Source: a virus
Virus record (IMG/VR): IMGVR_UViG_3300040801_004010
Location: 1-37,244 of that record
DNA length: 37,244 nt
Direction: 5' to 3' (one strand)
The notes under the pieces are model-generated. The model did no database searches. It saw only the letters and a list, made by a program, of their open reading frames with translations, and was not told the origin of the DNA. Shown here piece by piece: positions 1,269 through 25,401 of the stretch. Position numbers and translations under genes: made by a program. How positions within the stretch are numbered: the first letter of the stretch is position 1; the number at the start of each line of letters is the position of its first letter.

Positions 1269-3260
1269 ATGGTAGAGTATTATAATAACATATTATGTAT
1301 AGATGGTGGTTGGCTTTACAAAGATGGTAATATAATGTCTGTATATGATTATAAAAACCATCTCCATGCTAATAAAATGATAAAATTACGACACGGTGGA
1401 AACGGACGCACTGCATTAATCGATTACAATAGTATACCTGATAAATACAAAGAAAAGATAGTTAATAAAATCGGGGATCCTTATCAAAAGGTTAGCCGAC
1501 ACAATTTTGAGGATCAGATTAAACCCGATCCAAAGGCTAAAGAATTCTTTGATTCTTTTATCGACAACAAAGGCCGTCATCTTAAAGAGAAACAACGCAT
1601 TCAGTATTACAATAACACCATTATTATACAGGCTCTTATTGAGGTGGCCAATAGCCGGATAAAATTCAGAAAAGCATTAGGCGGCAGTTACCGTGGTGTA
1701 TGGAAACAACTTGGCGATGTTATAATTAACCTCAATAAAGATGTATTTCCGCACAATTTGCCTACACATTACCGACGTTTAAAATCTTTGGCAGACAAAT
1801 ACCTCCAACAAGGATACAGCGCATTTTTACACGCAGGCCTGGGTAATCCAAATTCACGAAAAGTGAACGATGCAATTGAACGGTTACTGCTTTCCATTTA
1901 TGTAATGGAAAACAGGCCTTTTGCATCGTGGGTGCAGGATTATTATTTACAGTTTCTTGCTGGCGCCATTGAGGTAGTAGATTGTGAGACAGGAGAGATA
2001 TTTGACCGCCAAAAATTCTTTGATAACGATGGCAAACCCATTACAATTAGCGAAAGTACCGCATGGAATTATTTAAGACGGCCCGATAACCAGGCGCTTG
2101 TTAATAAACTTCGAAAAAGCGGCATTAACTACAAAACAAAAGAGACTGCATACAATCATAGGCACCGTCCTAACTTCTCACTTAGTAAAATATCATTCGA
2201 TGACCGTACACTACCGCGCAAATCAGAAGATAAGAGATGGGTGCAGGCTTATTATGCGTACGATCCTATGAGTGAATGCTTCATAGGTACATCTTACAGT
2301 CTTGAAAAGGACATAAACCTTGTGTATGACTGCTTTAGAAACATGTATTCTACACTTGAAATGTTTGATTTGCCGTGGCCCGCTGAATCAGAAGTGGAGC
2401 ATCACCTTATGTCTGGCATAAAACCACAGTTGGATGATATGTTTGCATTTGTACATTTCTGTAACCCGCAAAACTCTCGTGAAAAAAGAGCGGAGCACGG
2501 TATCAGGCTTAAAAAGTATGGAACAGAAAAGGCAGATCAGAATAATATTGGTAGATGGTCAAATGCAAGCGATGCTTACCAGGTAAATCAGGATAAGATT
2601 GAAAAGATATCCATTGAACAGTTAATTGCCGACGATAAGCAGAGTGTTTTAGATCACAATCATAAACTGCATAGCAATCAAAAGCGCTTTCCTAAAAAAA
2701 CCCGATGGGAAGTATTAATGGAGAATGTTAACCCAGAATTATCACGCCCGGTTAAGCGCATTATTTTTAAGCATCTTGGTTTCAGAACCGATACAAGCAT
2801 ACGTAATAATGACTTTGTTCGGTGTCAGTATCACGACTATGCGATATCGGCACATAACATTTTATCGATGTTAAAACCCAATAAGTATGAAGTACAGGCT
2901 TATTATATACCCAATAACGACGGATCGATTCCGGAGGTTTACTTATACCAGGACGATACTTTTTTATGCGTGGCTAAAAAGTACGAATCTTATAATGAGG
3001 CTTTGGCTGAACGCACTGAACGTGATGAAAAGATAAGAAGCGAGCAGGCGGTAAGACAAGCCCGACAACGTAAAGCTGTTAAAGAAGGTCTGGAACGTAA
3101 AATTTCAAAAGTAAATATATCAAAAAATGATTTTGATTACGATTCAATTGAAGCCGAAACCGTTGAATCTGTACCGGAACCAGTTTTATCGAATGATGAT
3201 TTTGACTGGAATGTACAGGAAACTGATATCTATAAAAAACGAGCAATAAACGACTTATAA
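1269..3260 (+). CDS. MuA-type DDE transposase
   Basis: A protein of 663 residues, the length of MuA, which pairs the phage ends and carries out strand transfer. The N-terminal part (about 1-250) would hold the DNA-binding domains. The central catalytic domain begins with the FDDRT motif (D311/D312), the likely first catalytic acid. The likely final glutamate is E405 or E409 in EKRAEH, followed by KKYG. The second Asp of the DDE triad is not obvious: at the expected place the protein has WPAESEVEHHL with E373/E375/E377. The C-terminal region (about 560-663) is basic and then acidic, where MuA contacts MuB. First large gene of the early operon, directly followed by the MuB-like ATPase. Confidence 0.92.
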   Translation: MVEYYNNILCIDGGWLYKDGNIMSVYDYKNHLHANKMIKLRHGGNGRTALIDYNSIPDKYKEKIVNKIGDPYQKVSRHNFEDQIKPDPKAKEFFDSFIDNKGRHLKEKQRIQYYNNTIIIQALIEVANSRIKFRKALGGSYRGVWKQLGDVIINLNKDVFPHNLPTHYRRLKSLADKYLQQGYSAFLHAGLGNPNSRKVNDAIERLLLSIYVMENRPFASWVQDYYLQFLAGAIEVVDCETGEIFDRQKFFDNDGKPITISESTAWNYLRRPDNQALVNKLRKSGINYKTKETAYNHRHRPNFSLSKISFDDRTLPRKSEDKRWVQAYYAYDPMSECFIGTSYSLEKDINLVYDCFRNMYSTLEMFDLPWPAESEVEHHLMSGIKPQLDDMFAFVHFCNPQNSREKRAEHGIRLKKYGTEKADQNNIGRWSNASDAYQVNQDKIEKISIEQLIADDKQSVLDHNHKLHSNQKRFPKKTRWEVLMENVNPELSRPVKRIIFKHLGFRTDTSIRNNDFVRCQYHDYAISAHNILSMLKPNKYEVQAYYIPNNDGSIPEVYLYQDDTFLCVAKKYESYNEALAERTERDEKIRSEQAVRQARQRKAVKEGLERKISKVNISKNDFDYDSIEAETVESVPEPVLSNDDFDWNVQETDIYKKRAINDL

Positions 3261-3281: not shown

Positions 3282-4154
3282 ATGATGAACAATGAATTAA
3301 AATTTAAAATCGTAGCGGCTATAAAGGATCGTCGCAAAAACTTCCCGTCTGATTCTAAAATGGCAATTTACCTTGGCATTAATACTGCTCAGTATTCAAG
3401 GCTTGTTAATAAGGGTGAAATTGATAGTGTGATATCTGACGCTAAGTTTATAACCATTGCCAGAAAACTAGACGTAAGACTGAATGATGTGCCAGAATTG
3501 AAAACGGCAAACACACCCGTATTTCAGTACATAACAACACAGTTAGAAAACTGCCAGCGCAATTCAATAAGCGGTTTGTTTTGCGATATTGCGGATATTG
3601 GAAAAACACATGCAGCTAAATGGTACGTTCGGGAGCATAAAAATGCAATATATGTGGATTGCTCTCAAAACAAGCGAAAAACAAGGCTTATAAGATACAT
3701 TGCAAAAGAGTACGGTTTAAATCATACAGGACGTTACGACGATGTTTATGAAGATCTTGTATTTTATCTCAATAGCATTCCAAATCCTATAGTAATTCTC
3801 GATGAAGCAGGCGACTTAGATTATGCAGGGTTTTTAGAGTTAAAAGCACTATGGAATGCCACAGAACATGCATGCGCATGGTATATGATGGGTGCAGATG
3901 GGTTAAAGGTAAAAATTGAAAATAATCTGGGCCGTAAGAAAGTCGGATATGCAGAAATATTCAGACGATTTGGCGGTCGTTATCAGCGCATATCTCCAAT
4001 GGGAAAAACAGACCTTAATAGTTTTACAAAAACACAGGTCTCGCTTATCGCTAAAGCAAATGGAGTAAAAGATTTGCAAAGATTTTATGAAAAAACAGGT
4101 GGTTCTTTGACCCGAATTTATGTAGAAATTCAGGAATTCAAAAGGATAGCATAA
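3282..4154 (+). CDS. MuB-type target-capture AAA+ ATPase
   Basis: A protein of 290 residues. Residues about 1-70 resemble a helix-turn-helix domain (MAIYLGINTAQYSRLVNKGE), as in MuB. The ATPase core follows, with a P-loop at 102-109 (DIADIGKT) and a Walker B at 170-177 (IVILDEAG). The P-loop lacks the usual first glycine (D102 in its place), while the GKT core is intact. MuB binds target DNA, activates the transposase and gives target immunity. It lies 21 bp behind the transposase and 1 bp before a second ATPase gene. The start codon is one of two adjacent ATGs. Confidence 0.88.
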   Translation: MMNNELKFKIVAAIKDRRKNFPSDSKMAIYLGINTAQYSRLVNKGEIDSVISDAKFITIARKLDVRLNDVPELKTANTPVFQYITTQLENCQRNSISGLFCDIADIGKTHAAKWYVREHKNAIYVDCSQNKRKTRLIRYIAKEYGLNHTGRYDDVYEDLVFYLNSIPNPIVILDEAGDLDYAGFLELKALWNATEHACAWYMMGADGLKVKIENNLGRKKVGYAEIFRRFGGRYQRISPMGKTDLNSFTKTQVSLIAKANGVKDLQRFYEKTGGSLTRIYVEIQEFKRIA

Positions 4155-4798: not shown

Positions 4799-5209
4799 AT
4801 GAACAAATCCGCATTAATAAAAAAATTTCACACTGTTTGCTCAGTAAATGGTGTAAAAGACGATCAAAAGAAAATGATCGTGGGATCCTATCACGTTAGC
4901 TCCTCTAAGGATTTAACAGAAGCTCAGTTAAACCAACTTATCAGGCAAATAACCAATGATGGCCAAAATCAATGGCGTAAGCGTGTAATGGCTGCAATAG
5001 GTAATTTTTTGAGGTTGGTTAATAAAACCGAAAACCTTGATGTAATAAAAGCAATTGCTTGCAGGGCATCGGGGTATAACGATTTCAATAAAATTCCTGT
5101 CGGAAGGTTGCGGGATATATATTACGAGTTTGTGCGTAAAAACAAAACTACGCAAAAATCTCAGTATGAAAAAGAATCAATTATTCATGAACTTGAAAAA
5201 TGTAACTAA
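4799..5209 (+). CDS. GemA (Mu gp16)-like regulatory protein
   Basis: A protein of 136 residues. The central and C-terminal stretch with WRKRVMAAIGNFLR, IKAIACRASGY and KIPVGRLRDIYYEF is typical of the GemA/gp16 family, which in Mu affects host gene expression and DNA topology early in infection. The ATG at 4799 is chosen, as it lies just behind the ATPase gene, and the much earlier start at 4613 would overlap that gene by 176 bp. An in-frame ATG at 4775 is possible. The stop codon overlaps the next ATG (TAATG). Confidence 0.8.
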   Translation: MNKSALIKKFHTVCSVNGVKDDQKKMIVGSYHVSSSKDLTEAQLNQLIRQITNDGQNQWRKRVMAAIGNFLRLVNKTENLDVIKAIACRASGYNDFNKIPVGRLRDIYYEFVRKNKTTQKSQYEKESIIHELEKCN

Positions 5210-9915: not shown

Positions 9916-10461
9916 ATGAAACTATTGTATGCTATTATCTTAATAATTGTAGGAATAATTCTACTTTTTTCAAAAACTTGGTTAGGTGTTTTTTTGATCA
10001 TCGGAGCAATTATTTTGCCGTTTATTGGTGATACCAAGAATGATGGAAAACCATTATTTAATAAACAAGAGTTTGGAATGTATAATATGAATTTACATGA
10101 ATACTACTATAAGAATAGGCATAATAATGAGCGAAACTTTTTATTGCACATCTTCAATTATGCTATTGCTTTAGCATTTCAGGCAAGAGAGCGAGAGTTT
10201 GATTACTTATTTGAAGACAGTATTAAGCAAACAAATAATAAAAAGTTTATTGAATTTATGGATAGTATAAAGCCTGAGTTAAAAAAAATAATAAAAATTT
10301 CTAATAAAATCGATAATAGTGATGCAAATGACATGAGAGTTGGTGAATCAATAGGTGAGTATTTTGATAGAAAAATAAAAAGGAACAAAAAAGCCATGGA
10401 AATATATAACATATTAAACAGTAAAGAAACAGAAATAAAAGTATCCTCTTTTGCATCTTAA
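9916..10461 (+). CDS. Membrane-anchored hypothetical protein, probable moron
   Basis: A protein of 181 residues with two adjacent hydrophobic helices at the N-terminus (about 3-19 and 22-37) and a charged cytoplasmic or periplasmic domain. The coding DNA is more AT-rich than its neighbours, it has its own upstream gap, and the promoter of the structured RNA overlaps its 3' end. These are signs of a recently gained accessory gene. Superinfection exclusion is one possible role; nothing in the sequence proves it. Confidence 0.55.
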   Translation: MKLLYAIILIIVGIILLFSKTWLGVFLIIGAIILPFIGDTKNDGKPLFNKQEFGMYNMNLHEYYYKNRHNNERNFLLHIFNYAIALAFQAREREFDYLFEDSIKQTNNKKFIEFMDSIKPELKKIIKISNKIDNSDANDMRVGESIGEYFDRKIKRNKKAMEIYNILNSKETEIKVSSFAS

Positions 10462-10479
10462 CAATAATTCATATATTTG
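10450..10479 (+). promoter_or_regulatory. Promoter of the structured leader RNA
   Basis: TTTG (10450-10453), an 18-bp spacer and TATATTTG (10472-10479) fit the Bacteroidota promoter pattern. The start would fall at about 10484, exactly where the first strong RNA stem begins. The -33 element lies in the end of the preceding gene. Confidence 0.65.
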
Positions 10480-10483
10480 CTCC

Positions 10484-10614
10484 TGATCGTCATTTCCAAT
10501 ATCAGGGGCAATAGTCTCGAATTTTACATTAAGGCAATAAAGCCCAGGGTGGTCTGAAGGTAACAACAGACGACTTCATTAGCTCCGCTAGGAAGTGACG
10601 ATCACACCCTGGGT
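10484..10614 (+). ncRNA. Structured leader RNA with pseudoknot topology
   Basis: Helix A: tgatcgtcatttcc (10484-10497) pairs with ggaagtgacgatca (10591-10604), 14 bp with one G-U. Helix B: cccagggtg (10543-10551) pairs with caccctggg (10605-10613), 9 bp perfect. The order A-B-A'-B' is a pseudoknot, and A' and B' touch, so the helices could stack. Inside lie two small hairpins: gtctg/cagac (10552-10571) and tagc/gcta (10580-10590). The region is more GC-rich than its surroundings and has no gene. It sits between a good promoter and the regulator gene at 10640. It may be a leader, an independent small RNA, or both. Confidence 0.65.
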
Positions 10615-10649
10615 GATTTATTAATTAAATTCTTTAAAAATGATCGTCA
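10596..10649 (+). promoter_or_regulatory. Alternative pairing that would cover a start codon
   Basis: The 9-mer tgatcgtca of arm A (10484-10492) recurs at 10641-10649, overlapping the ATG at 10640-10642. The arm tgacgatca (10596-10604) can therefore pair either with the 5' end of the RNA or with the start codon of the next gene, 9 bp perfect in both cases. This is the layout of a translational switch. No Shine-Dalgarno is needed in Bacteroidota, so hiding the AUG itself would be the effective step. Inference from sequence only. Confidence 0.55.
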
Positions 10650-10972
10650 AAAAGAATGAAAAGCAGACTATGAGTTTGCAGGTTACCGAAGATTTGAAGG
10701 TAACAGTACTTCCTAATTCAAATCATGAGTTTTTAATGTCCTCAAATGAGGTTGCTATTGGTTATGGAGTTTCTGAACATTCCATTAGACAACACAAAAA
10801 AAGACAAGCATCAGAATTAACTAACGGTAAACATTTTGTTATGGGTGTGACAATTAGTCACAGCGACCCTCACAATAAAGTGTATTGGACAAAACGAGGG
10901 ATTGTCCGTTTAGGTTTTTTTATAAAGAGCGAGCGGCCAAAATGTTTCGTGACTGGGCAGAGGATTTGGTAA
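10640..10972 (+). CDS. N-terminal part of a phage regulator (frameshifted)
   Basis: A reading frame of 110 codons. Up to about residue 99 it reads like the N-terminal domain of Bacteroidota phage regulator/antirepressor-like proteins (SSNEVAIGYGVSEHSIRQHK, then VYWTKRGIVRLGFFIKSER). The natural continuation AKMFRDWAEDLVI lies in the -1 frame, so the last residues here (PKCFVTGQRIW) are out of frame. A one-base deletion at about 10934-10936 explains this best. A -1 shift at T TTT TTT (10915-10921, correct phase) is the alternative. The gene lies between early and late regions, where Mu keeps Mor and C. Confidence 0.6.
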   Translation: MIVKKNEKQTMSLQVTEDLKVTVLPNSNHEFLMSSNEVAIGYGVSEHSIRQHKKRQASELTNGKHFVMGVTISHSDPHNKVYWTKRGIVRLGFFIKSERPKCFVTGQRIW

Positions 10973-11247
10973 TAAGCAAATCGGAAACTCTAAAAACACT
11001 ACCCAAAACTAACACAGAGACGATTAAAGACTTTAAGGAGTTGCTTGAAATTATTGATTCGGCAGCGGTTATATGTGGCAATCACTCTAAATTATCAAAA
11101 CGTCTGGGGCTTAATCAGGCTATGTTTAGCCACCTGATAAAACGCCCGTGGCTGGTATCAGAAAAAATGCAGCAAGCCATTGAAACCGGTTGCCGCAATA
11201 AGCTTAAAGATATTTTAGGCAAGTATGAAGCCTTATGTGATTTATGA
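10885..11247 (+). CDS. C-terminal part of the same regulator, with HTH
   Basis: The -1 frame continuation of the preceding entry. The real homologous sequence starts at about 10936 (AKMFRDWAEDLVISK); the ATG at 10885 is only the first one in this frame and its early codons (MDKTRDCPFRFF) are shadow sequence. Residues about 55-105 form a Cro/YdaS-like helix-turn-helix (AAVICGNHSKLSKRLGLNQ, then FSHLIKRPWLVSEKM). If the frames are joined, the product would be about 202 residues: a regulator core plus a DNA-binding domain. It ends 4 bp before the bidirectional terminator. Confidence 0.6.
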   Translation: MDKTRDCPFRFFYKERAAKMFRDWAEDLVISKSETLKTLPKTNTETIKDFKELLEIIDSAAVICGNHSKLSKRLGLNQAMFSHLIKRPWLVSEKMQQAIETGCRNKLKDILGKYEALCDL

Positions 11248-14594: not shown

Positions 14595-14660
14595 GGATCG
14601 GGATGCGTCCCGAACCTCCCAAAACGGTTAATCATTTATTTGGTTAGCCGTTTTGCTTTT
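14595..14660 (+). ncRNA. Candidate small RNA, about 65 nt
   Basis: The RNA would start about 5 bases after a TAnnTTTG box. First comes the hairpin tcggga-tgcg-tcccga (14598-14613, with flanking gg/cc), then a terminator: aaaacggttaa (14621-14631) pairs with ttagccgtttt (14644-14654), 11 bp with one G-U, followed by gctttt. Promoter, hairpin and terminator fill the gap between two minus-strand genes almost exactly. As the transcript runs against the operon it could pair with the mRNA between the head morphogenesis and tape measure genes. The second hairpin may also serve the minus-strand transcript. Confidence 0.6.
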
Positions 14661-15969
14661 ATAACCCCAACGATTCACGAGTATAAGGTATTATTTCATT
14701 ATCATTAATTACCCATACTTCCTGAATGTTTTTACTATGTTTGAGCTGACCTTTTACTGCTCGTTTTATTGTTTCTTCATGTAATGGTTCAGAGAGTTGT
14801 AATATTACATTGTTTGCCTGTTTACCTGCTTTACGCAATAGATTATGCATTGATGTAATACTATTACTATTTGACACTTTTAAATCGGTAATAACATTAT
14901 TTACAAGTGCATCTGGGTTTTTCCCTTTTATAAAACTCTTATTTCGGTATACAATCTCTCGTATGTCATCGTCTGCCTGGTTAAATATGGGTAACAATTC
15001 CACTTTATTACCTTTTTCTGCCAATAGCTTCGAAAGCTCAATATTTGCATTCATTTCGTTAATTCCATGCATAATATGAAAATCTACCTTACCGCCCGAT
15101 TCATGTGTAAAAACATTTTTAAATACTGCATCTTTGGGCTGATATAATACAGCTCGTTTAATCTCTGAAATTGGTGTGCCTTCATAATATGGATGATCTT
15201 TCGGAAATATCAATCCTGTACGTGCTAAGTTTGTTTGAAACATTGATGGTATTGGTACCGATGGAATATTCTCGGTTTCTTTTGCCGAGCTGCTTGCCAG
15301 TTGATCTGTATCGCAACGGCATCGCCATCCGTTAGGAGGGAAATGAGTATTCCAAAAAGCGTCAGTTATTTTACGTATAACACCATCTATTGCACGGTGT
15401 GATGATCTTACCCGTTCGTCTCCTGCGGTACTGTATCGCAAATAGGGTTGATCCTCTGCATTTTTTTCAAAATCGTTCCAACGAGCTGCCATTGTAGATG
15501 CTCCAACAGCATTGTCATATTCAGTTTTTAACCATGTATTGTTAAACCGATCGTTAATAATTACCGCATCCTTTTTAAATTCGTTAAATGATTTTAGTTT
15601 ACCATCTTCAGCCACAAGGCTCATGGATATATCACGCATTTGCTGGTAATTTTTAGCGGCACTAAATTGCCAGGCATCACGGGTAAGTTTTGTTAACATT
15701 TCACCATCGGGTGTAGTGTAATCAATTTCATTGAACGACTGACCAAATGAATTAATTACCTGACTTGATATTACTTTACCTACATGCTTAAGTATGGCCT
15801 TATCGGTAACAATGTTCTTACCATCGTATATCTCACGAATAACCCGATCGATCTCTTTATTTACATTGGAAACAAAGTTTGCTGGCAGTTCACTTTCAGC
15901 CGATGGATTAACACCACCACAAAAACTACAAGGCTCGTATAGTTGTTTAGGGATACCCGTTTGAGCCAC
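14659..15969 (-). CDS. Head morphogenesis protein (Mu gp30/SPP1 gp7-like) with C-terminal nuclease-like domain
   Basis: A protein of 436 residues. A Cys pair is near the start (PCSFCGG). Residues about 150-225 are the minor-head domain, with YDNAVGASTMAARW, RVRSSHRAIDGV and PPNGWRCRC. After a linker, residues about 285-436 form an added domain: LLAEKGNKVELLPIF, KNPDALVNN, VITDLK, then a helix and VWVINDNE. The NPD (351-353) and DLK (362-364) spacing resembles the active site of PD-(D/E)xK-type or CdiA-CT-type toxin nucleases, known as C-terminal additions on phage head proteins. It lies 14 bp behind the portal gene. Confidence 0.85.
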   Translation of the reverse strand: MAQTGIPKQLYEPCSFCGGVNPSAESELPANFVSNVNKEIDRVIREIYDGKNIVTDKAILKHVGKVISSQVINSFGQSFNEIDYTTPDGEMLTKLTRDAWQFSAAKNYQQMRDISMSLVAEDGKLKSFNEFKKDAVIINDRFNNTWLKTEYDNAVGASTMAARWNDFEKNAEDQPYLRYSTAGDERVRSSHRAIDGVIRKITDAFWNTHFPPNGWRCRCDTDQLASSSAKETENIPSVPIPSMFQTNLARTGLIFPKDHPYYEGTPISEIKRAVLYQPKDAVFKNVFTHESGGKVDFHIMHGINEMNANIELSKLLAEKGNKVELLPIFNQADDDIREIVYRNKSFIKGKNPDALVNNVITDLKVSNSNSITSMHNLLRKAGKQANNVILQLSEPLHEETIKRAVKGQLKHSKNIQEVWVINDNEIIPYTRESLGL

Positions 15970-25235: not shown

Positions 25236-25401
25236 TACCCGAGACTTATCAAATTTTTTCAGGAGGGCAAATGCCCTCATGAGCTTTTATTTTCATATAC
25301 CATTTCCTGAAGAGCTGGACGATCAAACATGGATGGAAAAGTACCGCCAAATCGAATGGCTTGCAAAAAAGGGAATATTAGGAGTAAAGACAGATGAGTA
25401 G
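25186..25401 (+). CDS. Tail assembly chaperone, frameshift extension (gpT-type part)
   Basis: The frame of 71 codons opened by the -1 shift, without its own good start codon. It begins LIEDYPFIDIVDDSDSL and has FFRRANALMSFYFHIPFPEE, and TWMEKYRQIEWLAKKG near the end. Together with the upstream frame the fusion would be about 189 residues (24833-25401). The extension binds the tape measure in known systems. It overlaps the next gene by 8 bp. It would be lost in an annotation that asks for ATG starts. Confidence 0.82.
   Translation, partial: LIEDYPFIDIVDDSDSLTRDLSNFFRRANALMSFYFHIPFPEELDDQTWMEKYRQIEWLAKKGILGVKTDE

Follow-up and report, generated by a model that had tools for sequence, protein, structure and literature searches.

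The leader locus of a Mu-like phage

The window (the whole stretch of DNA analysed, 37,244 nucleotides of an IMG/VR virus record) is a 37.2-kb record of a Mu-like phage. Profile matches cover the transposition genes of the MuA/MuB type as well as head genes of the Mu type: a MuA-like transposase (1269-3260, phrog_310) and a MuB-like protein (3282-4154) are present, phrog_296 is among the matches, and the Portal_Mu and Phage_Mu_F proteins are encoded on the minus strand. A BLAST search of the window DNA against phage records gave no match. We infer Bacteroidota as the host phylum because of a TAnnTTTG promoter (see below) and two of the relatives, namely L041, a Prolixibacteraceae MAG whose DNA is identical to that of phage L010 across the leader region, and Peternella_1, a cultured Mu-like phage of Winogradskyella that carries the same leader. 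Elsewhere in the genome, a Phage Mu F-like head protein (14659-15969) has a C-terminal CdiA_C domain (Pfam match), possibly a MuF-type effector fusion, and a D12-class adenine-specific DNA methyltransferase is found at the right end of the phage (36215-37021).

At the end of the rightward genes, directly ahead of the converging tail and head genes, lies an antirepressor-like gene, ant (10640-11247, plus strand), preceded by the leader studied here. In this record the gene is split over two frames, 10640-10972 and an open frame at 10885-11247 (overlap 10885-10972); relatives have one intact frame. Its product matches the anti-repressor profiles phrog_63, 373, 2127 and 2379, and is predicted to be an antirepressor involved in the switch to the lytic cycle, in agreement with the earlier expectation of a regulatory gene behind the leader. 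An AlphaFold model of the Ant protein was poor (mean pLDDT 62.6) with weak fold matches (best E 0.023) and was not used.

All elements of the leader are on the plus strand. A promoter of the Bacteroidota sigma-A consensus (TTTG at 10450-10453, an 18-nt spacer and TATATTTG at 10472-10479) stands before arm A (TGATCGTCATTTCC, 10484-10497), a sense copy at the predicted 5' end of the RNA. After arm A there is a small hairpin (GGGGC-AATA-GTCTC, 10505-10518), found by folding and with its counterpart in the relatives recognized by eye. Then comes B (10542-10551), the 5' strand of the closing stem of a C4-like domain, followed by hairpin P3 (10552-10571, pairing 10552-10556 with 10567-10571), which has a GNRA-type loop, GTAA, and hairpin P4 (10573-10596, pairing 10573-10577 and 10579-10583 with 10587-10596), which has a 3-nt loop. 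The antisense strand A' (GGAAGTGACGATCA, 10591-10604) can pair with A at 14 positions, one of which is G.U, and ends with an 8-nt seed, GACGATCA (10597-10604), delimited by the R2 model described below without the use of A''. The closing stem is completed by B' (10605-10614). P3, P4 and B' are supported by both folding and covariation. Finally, A'' (TGATCGTCA, 10641-10649) is the target copy over the antirepressor start codon (ATG at 10640), and the seed is the exact complement of 10641-10648. Each element named in the original prediction (A, A', A'', B, B' and the TTTG-N18-TATATTTG promoter) is thus present in the sequence, and the pairing positions do place A-B-A'-B' in the order of a formal pseudoknot; the B:B' pairing also stands, but it covers 10 bp and not the 9 bp originally given.

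The 9-nt triple (two direct copies and one reverse complement) arose in 0.2% of dinucleotide shuffles of a 199-nt region, which in a single sequence is moderate and by itself limited evidence, so that the relatives decide. TGATCGTC is present twice more in the window, at 4859-4866 and 25318-25325 on the minus strand, and neither site is close to the start of a listed long ORF. Two other features are worth recording. A hairpin in the first ant codons (GCAGAC-TATGA-GTTTGC, 10663-10679, seen by eye) has an ATG in its loop and is kept at the DNA level in relatives, L004 rebuilding it with GCAGG/CCTGC; it possibly belongs to the cassette. An inverted repeat, TTGCTCCTGAT/ATCAGGGGCAA (10477-10487 and 10501-10511), spans the -7 box and arm A; its arms are re-encoded in some relatives, e.g., TTTGCCATCG/CGATGGCAAA, with a variable spacer, and it is a candidate operator or hairpin of a read-through RNA.

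The flavobacterial TAnnTTTG box occupies positions -12 to -5 of the transcription start (PMC9723704). With this spacing, +1 in the window is predicted at 10484, where arm A begins, and the transcript is therefore expected to open with the sense copy of the target. Among the 39 phages with the A/A'/A'' triple, TTTG lies 3 to 5 nt ahead of arm A in 38, the complete TAnnTTTG in 34, and a TTG is found near -33 in 33, i.e., the claimed start of the leader RNA at arm A is also what promoter spacing predicts for 38 of these phages.

Covariation and seed rewriting among relatives

A search with the downstream protein recovered many IMG/VR contigs with Ant-type genes. R1, a covariance model built on the B to B' domain of six relatives, detected the same RNA directly upstream of Ant-type genes in further phages, and a second model (R2) was built from 26 matches. 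About 40 related phages have the leader ahead of a gene of the antirepressor type; 39 have a readable A/A'/A'' triple, and 28 have distinct 9-nt seeds. Three relatives with Ant-type genes (L078, L080 and L105) lack a clear triple. When 395 Bacteroidota genomes were scanned with R2, one alone matched, G001, which L041 had already revealed. L004, L059 and L114 have a second type of leader (CCTAACCCCGT...ACGGGAAGTGGGC) ahead of Ant and KilA-N genes; its sense repeats precede the ATG, and R2 does not match it.

Covariation in homologues had been set beforehand as a test of the structure, and it was found. In the four B/P3/P4 stems, 89.8% of the cells are paired and both partners have changed in 20 of 25 pairs, with 7 of 9 in B:B' (helix 1), 5 of 5 in P3 (helix 3) and 8 of 10 in P4 (helix 4). 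Double-change cells numbered 167, compared with 64 expected from shuffles, and the covariation score was reached by 0 of 500 shuffles, with some bias in favour of the structure since the alignment was fitted by the model to the structure tested. Shifting the stem partners by 1 to 3 columns abolished the signal. The A:A' and B:B' pairings are each conserved separately, which is compatible with a joint pseudoknot or with alternation between the two.

The seed was defined as the 8 unpaired positions between P4 and B' in the R2 alignment, leaving A'' aside; it supersedes a first seed test in which A' had been located through its match to A'', which was partly circular. Out of 16 distinct seeds, 11 match their own target at all 8 positions when the target is fixed at one position after the ATG, and 12 do so within the start region when the register can move. 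Among the 240 non-cognate pairings, no 8/8 match appeared. The summed match of seeds to their own targets was 108 against a permutation maximum of 95, so that none of 50,000 permutations reached it. In L054, the target matches at only 6 of the 8 positions. Arm A follows the same code, with a mean of 13.4 of 14 pairs to the cognate A' versus 9.8 to non-cognate ones. In other words, A, A' and A'' are rewritten together in the relatives each time, and the start-codon copy anticipated from the window is retained, re-encoded with the seed. The register of the target varies (-10 to -1 relative to the ATG in L008 and L049, -2 to +6 in L025 and L027, and +1 to +9 in most), yet it always covers the translation initiation region. 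Residues 2 and 3 of the protein vary with the RNA code, and later codons are conserved. The leader is genuine and under selection.

The same leader also stands ahead of other proteins: a Bro-N protein in L122, a KilA-N protein (Peternella_1, L113) and, in L005, an unclassified protein with only the first ~15 codons in common. L114 has a KilA-N protein behind the different leader type, without an R2 match. N-terminal domains are swapped behind one leader, which suggests that the RNA cassette is modular. The proteins of L122, L113, L114 and L026 have a C-terminal domain in common (HNRLTxxRLVxILADVxxIxxxxLR), attached to an N-terminal domain of the Bro-N, KilA-N or ORF6N/Ant-like type.

Folding, proposed mode of action and rival readings

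The 181-nt leader RNA has a folding z of -4.0. Without arm A, the trimmed RNA (10541-10622) folds into B:B', P3 and P4 with an open 8-nt seed. In nested-fold predictions, in which the pseudoknot is not representable, the probability that the seed is unpaired in the window is 0.90 for the trimmed RNA and 0.04 for the full transcript, and the mean over 27 phages is 0.80 for trimmed versus 0.43 for full-length RNAs. Pairing of A' with A is about 10 kcal/mol stronger than with A'' in the window (-22.6 versus -12.8 kcal/mol). The same order of strength holds in 26 of the 28 phages, and A:A' can form ahead of the transcription of A''; the intact transcript should therefore leave the start codon free. 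Arm A often has a U where the target has a C. Inside the 8-nt seed of 27 phages there are 13 G.U pairs for arm A and 2 for A'' (more in A in 11 phages, fewer in none and equal in 16). This excess would ease the release of the seed, but it is concentrated at seed position 8 and may therefore represent one inherited pattern and not independent events.

With the start expected to be free on the intact transcript, repression requires an RNA in which arm A is not available. The leader is, in our judgement, likely to be a single-seed C4-type antisense RNA that represses the antirepressor mainly in trans, probably after the loss of its 5' arm. Transcription would begin at arm A, and the RNA would form a tRNA-sized domain made of B:B', the GNRA hairpin, the second hairpin and the single-stranded seed A' on the junction's 3' side. 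In a prophage, RNase P or some other nuclease would cut the 5' arm away at the base of B, as in P1 C4. The copies lacking it would display the seed, pair with A'' where it overlaps the start codon of ant and so block ant translation, in trans on ant mRNA. With the antirepressor kept off, the lysogen would resist phages of the same seed type. In an untrimmed transcript, A would cover A', and a new mRNA would not be immediately self-repressed. Several observations weigh against this reading: the window matches neither Rfam C4 nor c4-2, it has one seed in place of two, no intrinsic terminator that could end a separate small RNA was found after B', its ant frame is broken, and L078, L080, L105 and L054 depart from the pattern.

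The original prediction gave A' two alternative partners, A and the start-codon copy, and both complementarities are indeed present and kept in the relatives. In its purely cis form, this would be a switch contained in one RNA, with ant on while A:A' is formed and off while A':A'' is formed, under the control of a ligand, a protein or 5'-end processing and with no RNA acting in trans. Such an arrangement agrees with the fact that A, A' and A'' covary within one transcript, and the seed G.U pairs look as if A:A' had been tuned to be weaker. However, the greater strength of A:A' in nearly all the phages, together with its ability to form ahead of A'' synthesis, means that the intact transcript should be on, and a self-contained switch in cis thus finds only partial support. 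Besides, the seed varies freely in a frame that is kept, a pattern resembling an address and not a ligand pocket, and P1 has the same layout working in trans. We regard a switch acting in cis alone as unlikely. Even less probable is a transcription attenuator, in which B:B' and a U-rich stretch would form a terminator and A:A' or translation would set the read-through into ant: there are T runs after B' in L008, L009 and L010, but no intrinsic terminator could be found 3' of B' in the window, where the tail is T-poor (as it is in L003 and L005), and an attenuator gives no account of why A'' matches exactly at the start codon. Although the inverted repeat over the -7 box and arm A, with its re-encoded arms, and the C1 operator at the c4 promoter of P1 would fit repeats that act as repressor half-sites or transposition sites in the DNA, with incidental RNA folds, we give this almost no credence, given that GNRA loops, G.U pairs, compensated stems and seeds matched to start codons require RNA and that the spacer of the inverted repeat varies from ~12 to 24 nt where its arms are long.

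Returning to the C4-type antisense RNA, a broader version can be offered tentatively, and we rate it as somewhat doubtful. The RNA would be self-capped, with arm A holding the seed until trimming, to give a timed immunity switch coded by the seed. A free-standing cassette with a rewritable seed would move among antirepressor types (ORF6N/Ant-like, Bro-N, KilA-N and the unclassified one of L005) across Mu-like phages of Bacteroidota and define their immunity groups, and the chromosomal c4-2 RNAs (see below) would be related RNAs of this kind, their seed being in two parts. The lysogeny control of Bacteroidota Mu-like phages is little known. If our reading is true, superinfection immunity by RNAs of the P1 c4 type extends beyond Proteobacteria and is common in these phages, and the seed is a readable immunity code by which phages of equal seed would be mutually immune whatever their other genes. 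The presence of the leader in Peternella_1, which is cultured, makes the system testable.

Comparison with C4, c4-2 and sar

Judging from the sequence, the best reading of the window RNA is a C4-type device that has no match in the window to public RNA models. The closest plan is that of C4 (RF01695; c4-a1b1, RF03163) of phages P1 and P7. RNase P trims the C4 RNA, which works in trans (PMC5320573, PMC8546580). The P1 locus comprises the c4 promoters, a1/b1, C4 RNA, a2/b2, icd and ant, in the order a1 (48255-48261), c4 (48343-48419), a2 (48423-48429), icd and ant. In the Rfam alignment, the closing stem of P1 C4 encloses a UUCG hairpin and a second hairpin, and the stretch UCUGUCA, ahead of the closing strand, is unpaired. 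The window shares with C4 the 5' sense copy, the closing stem, the two hairpins and the unpaired seed on the 3' side. As in P1 immI, sense copies are found upstream and downstream of the RNA, the second at the translation start of the operon, and an antirepressor gene follows, according to the profile matches. The differences are also clear. C4 has two seeds (a' and b'), whereas the window has one and the loop of its second hairpin has 3 nt; this P4 loop is short across the whole alignment of relatives, and there is no b' seed in it. The target in P1 is the icd ribosome-binding site, while in the window it is the start codon of ant; mRNAs of Bacteroidota have no Shine-Dalgarno sequences (PMC7366714). 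Unlike in P1/P7, the sense copy is at the predicted +1 and the promoter is of the Bacteroidota type. A gathering-threshold scan of the window with Rfam gave no family match, and the Rfam C4 model did not match it at gathering or at E values up to 10, although the P1 control scored 68.8 bits.

The c4-2 family (RF02944, C4 clan) did not match the window either, but the relative L087 did at 44.6 bits, above the cut-off of 41, and L058, L063, L079 and L074 matched below the cut-off. We therefore use the term C4-type and c4-2-related for the window RNA and do not call it a member of Rfam C4. The signatures AUGGUGG, GAAAC and ACACCUAAG are held in common with c4-2, and R2 aligns to c4-2 copies in register, albeit weakly. 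In Bacteroidota chromosomes, Rfam c4-2 was present in 10 of 395 genomes, mostly with 2 to 6 copies each. Different from our leader, these chromosomal copies carry a seed in two parts and lie ahead of a small conserved protein of ~77 amino acids, not an antirepressor. At their loci (L139-L167), a TCCTAAA-N repeat is often found near the predicted 5' end or promoter of the RNA and again before the ATG, a plan recognized by visual reading and a simple search for repeats, with no statistical control. The halves of the repeat are complementary to the junction UAGGA and to the loop of the second hairpin, like the a/b seeds of P1. Our reading, if true, also supplies a concrete target hypothesis for Rfam c4-2.

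The C4-like sRNAs of Acinetobacter baumannii are processed RNAs of C4 fold with a variable target-specific region (PMC5320573). They differ from the window RNA in being proteobacterial, with many per genome, Rfam C4 matches and unknown targets. The sar RNA of phage P22 is transcribed from the strand opposite its target region. It is an antisense RNA that blocks the translation of the antirepressor (PMC12197685), and antirepressor translation is also the antisense target predicted here. Unlike sar, the window RNA is upstream of ant, on the same strand and within the same transcript.
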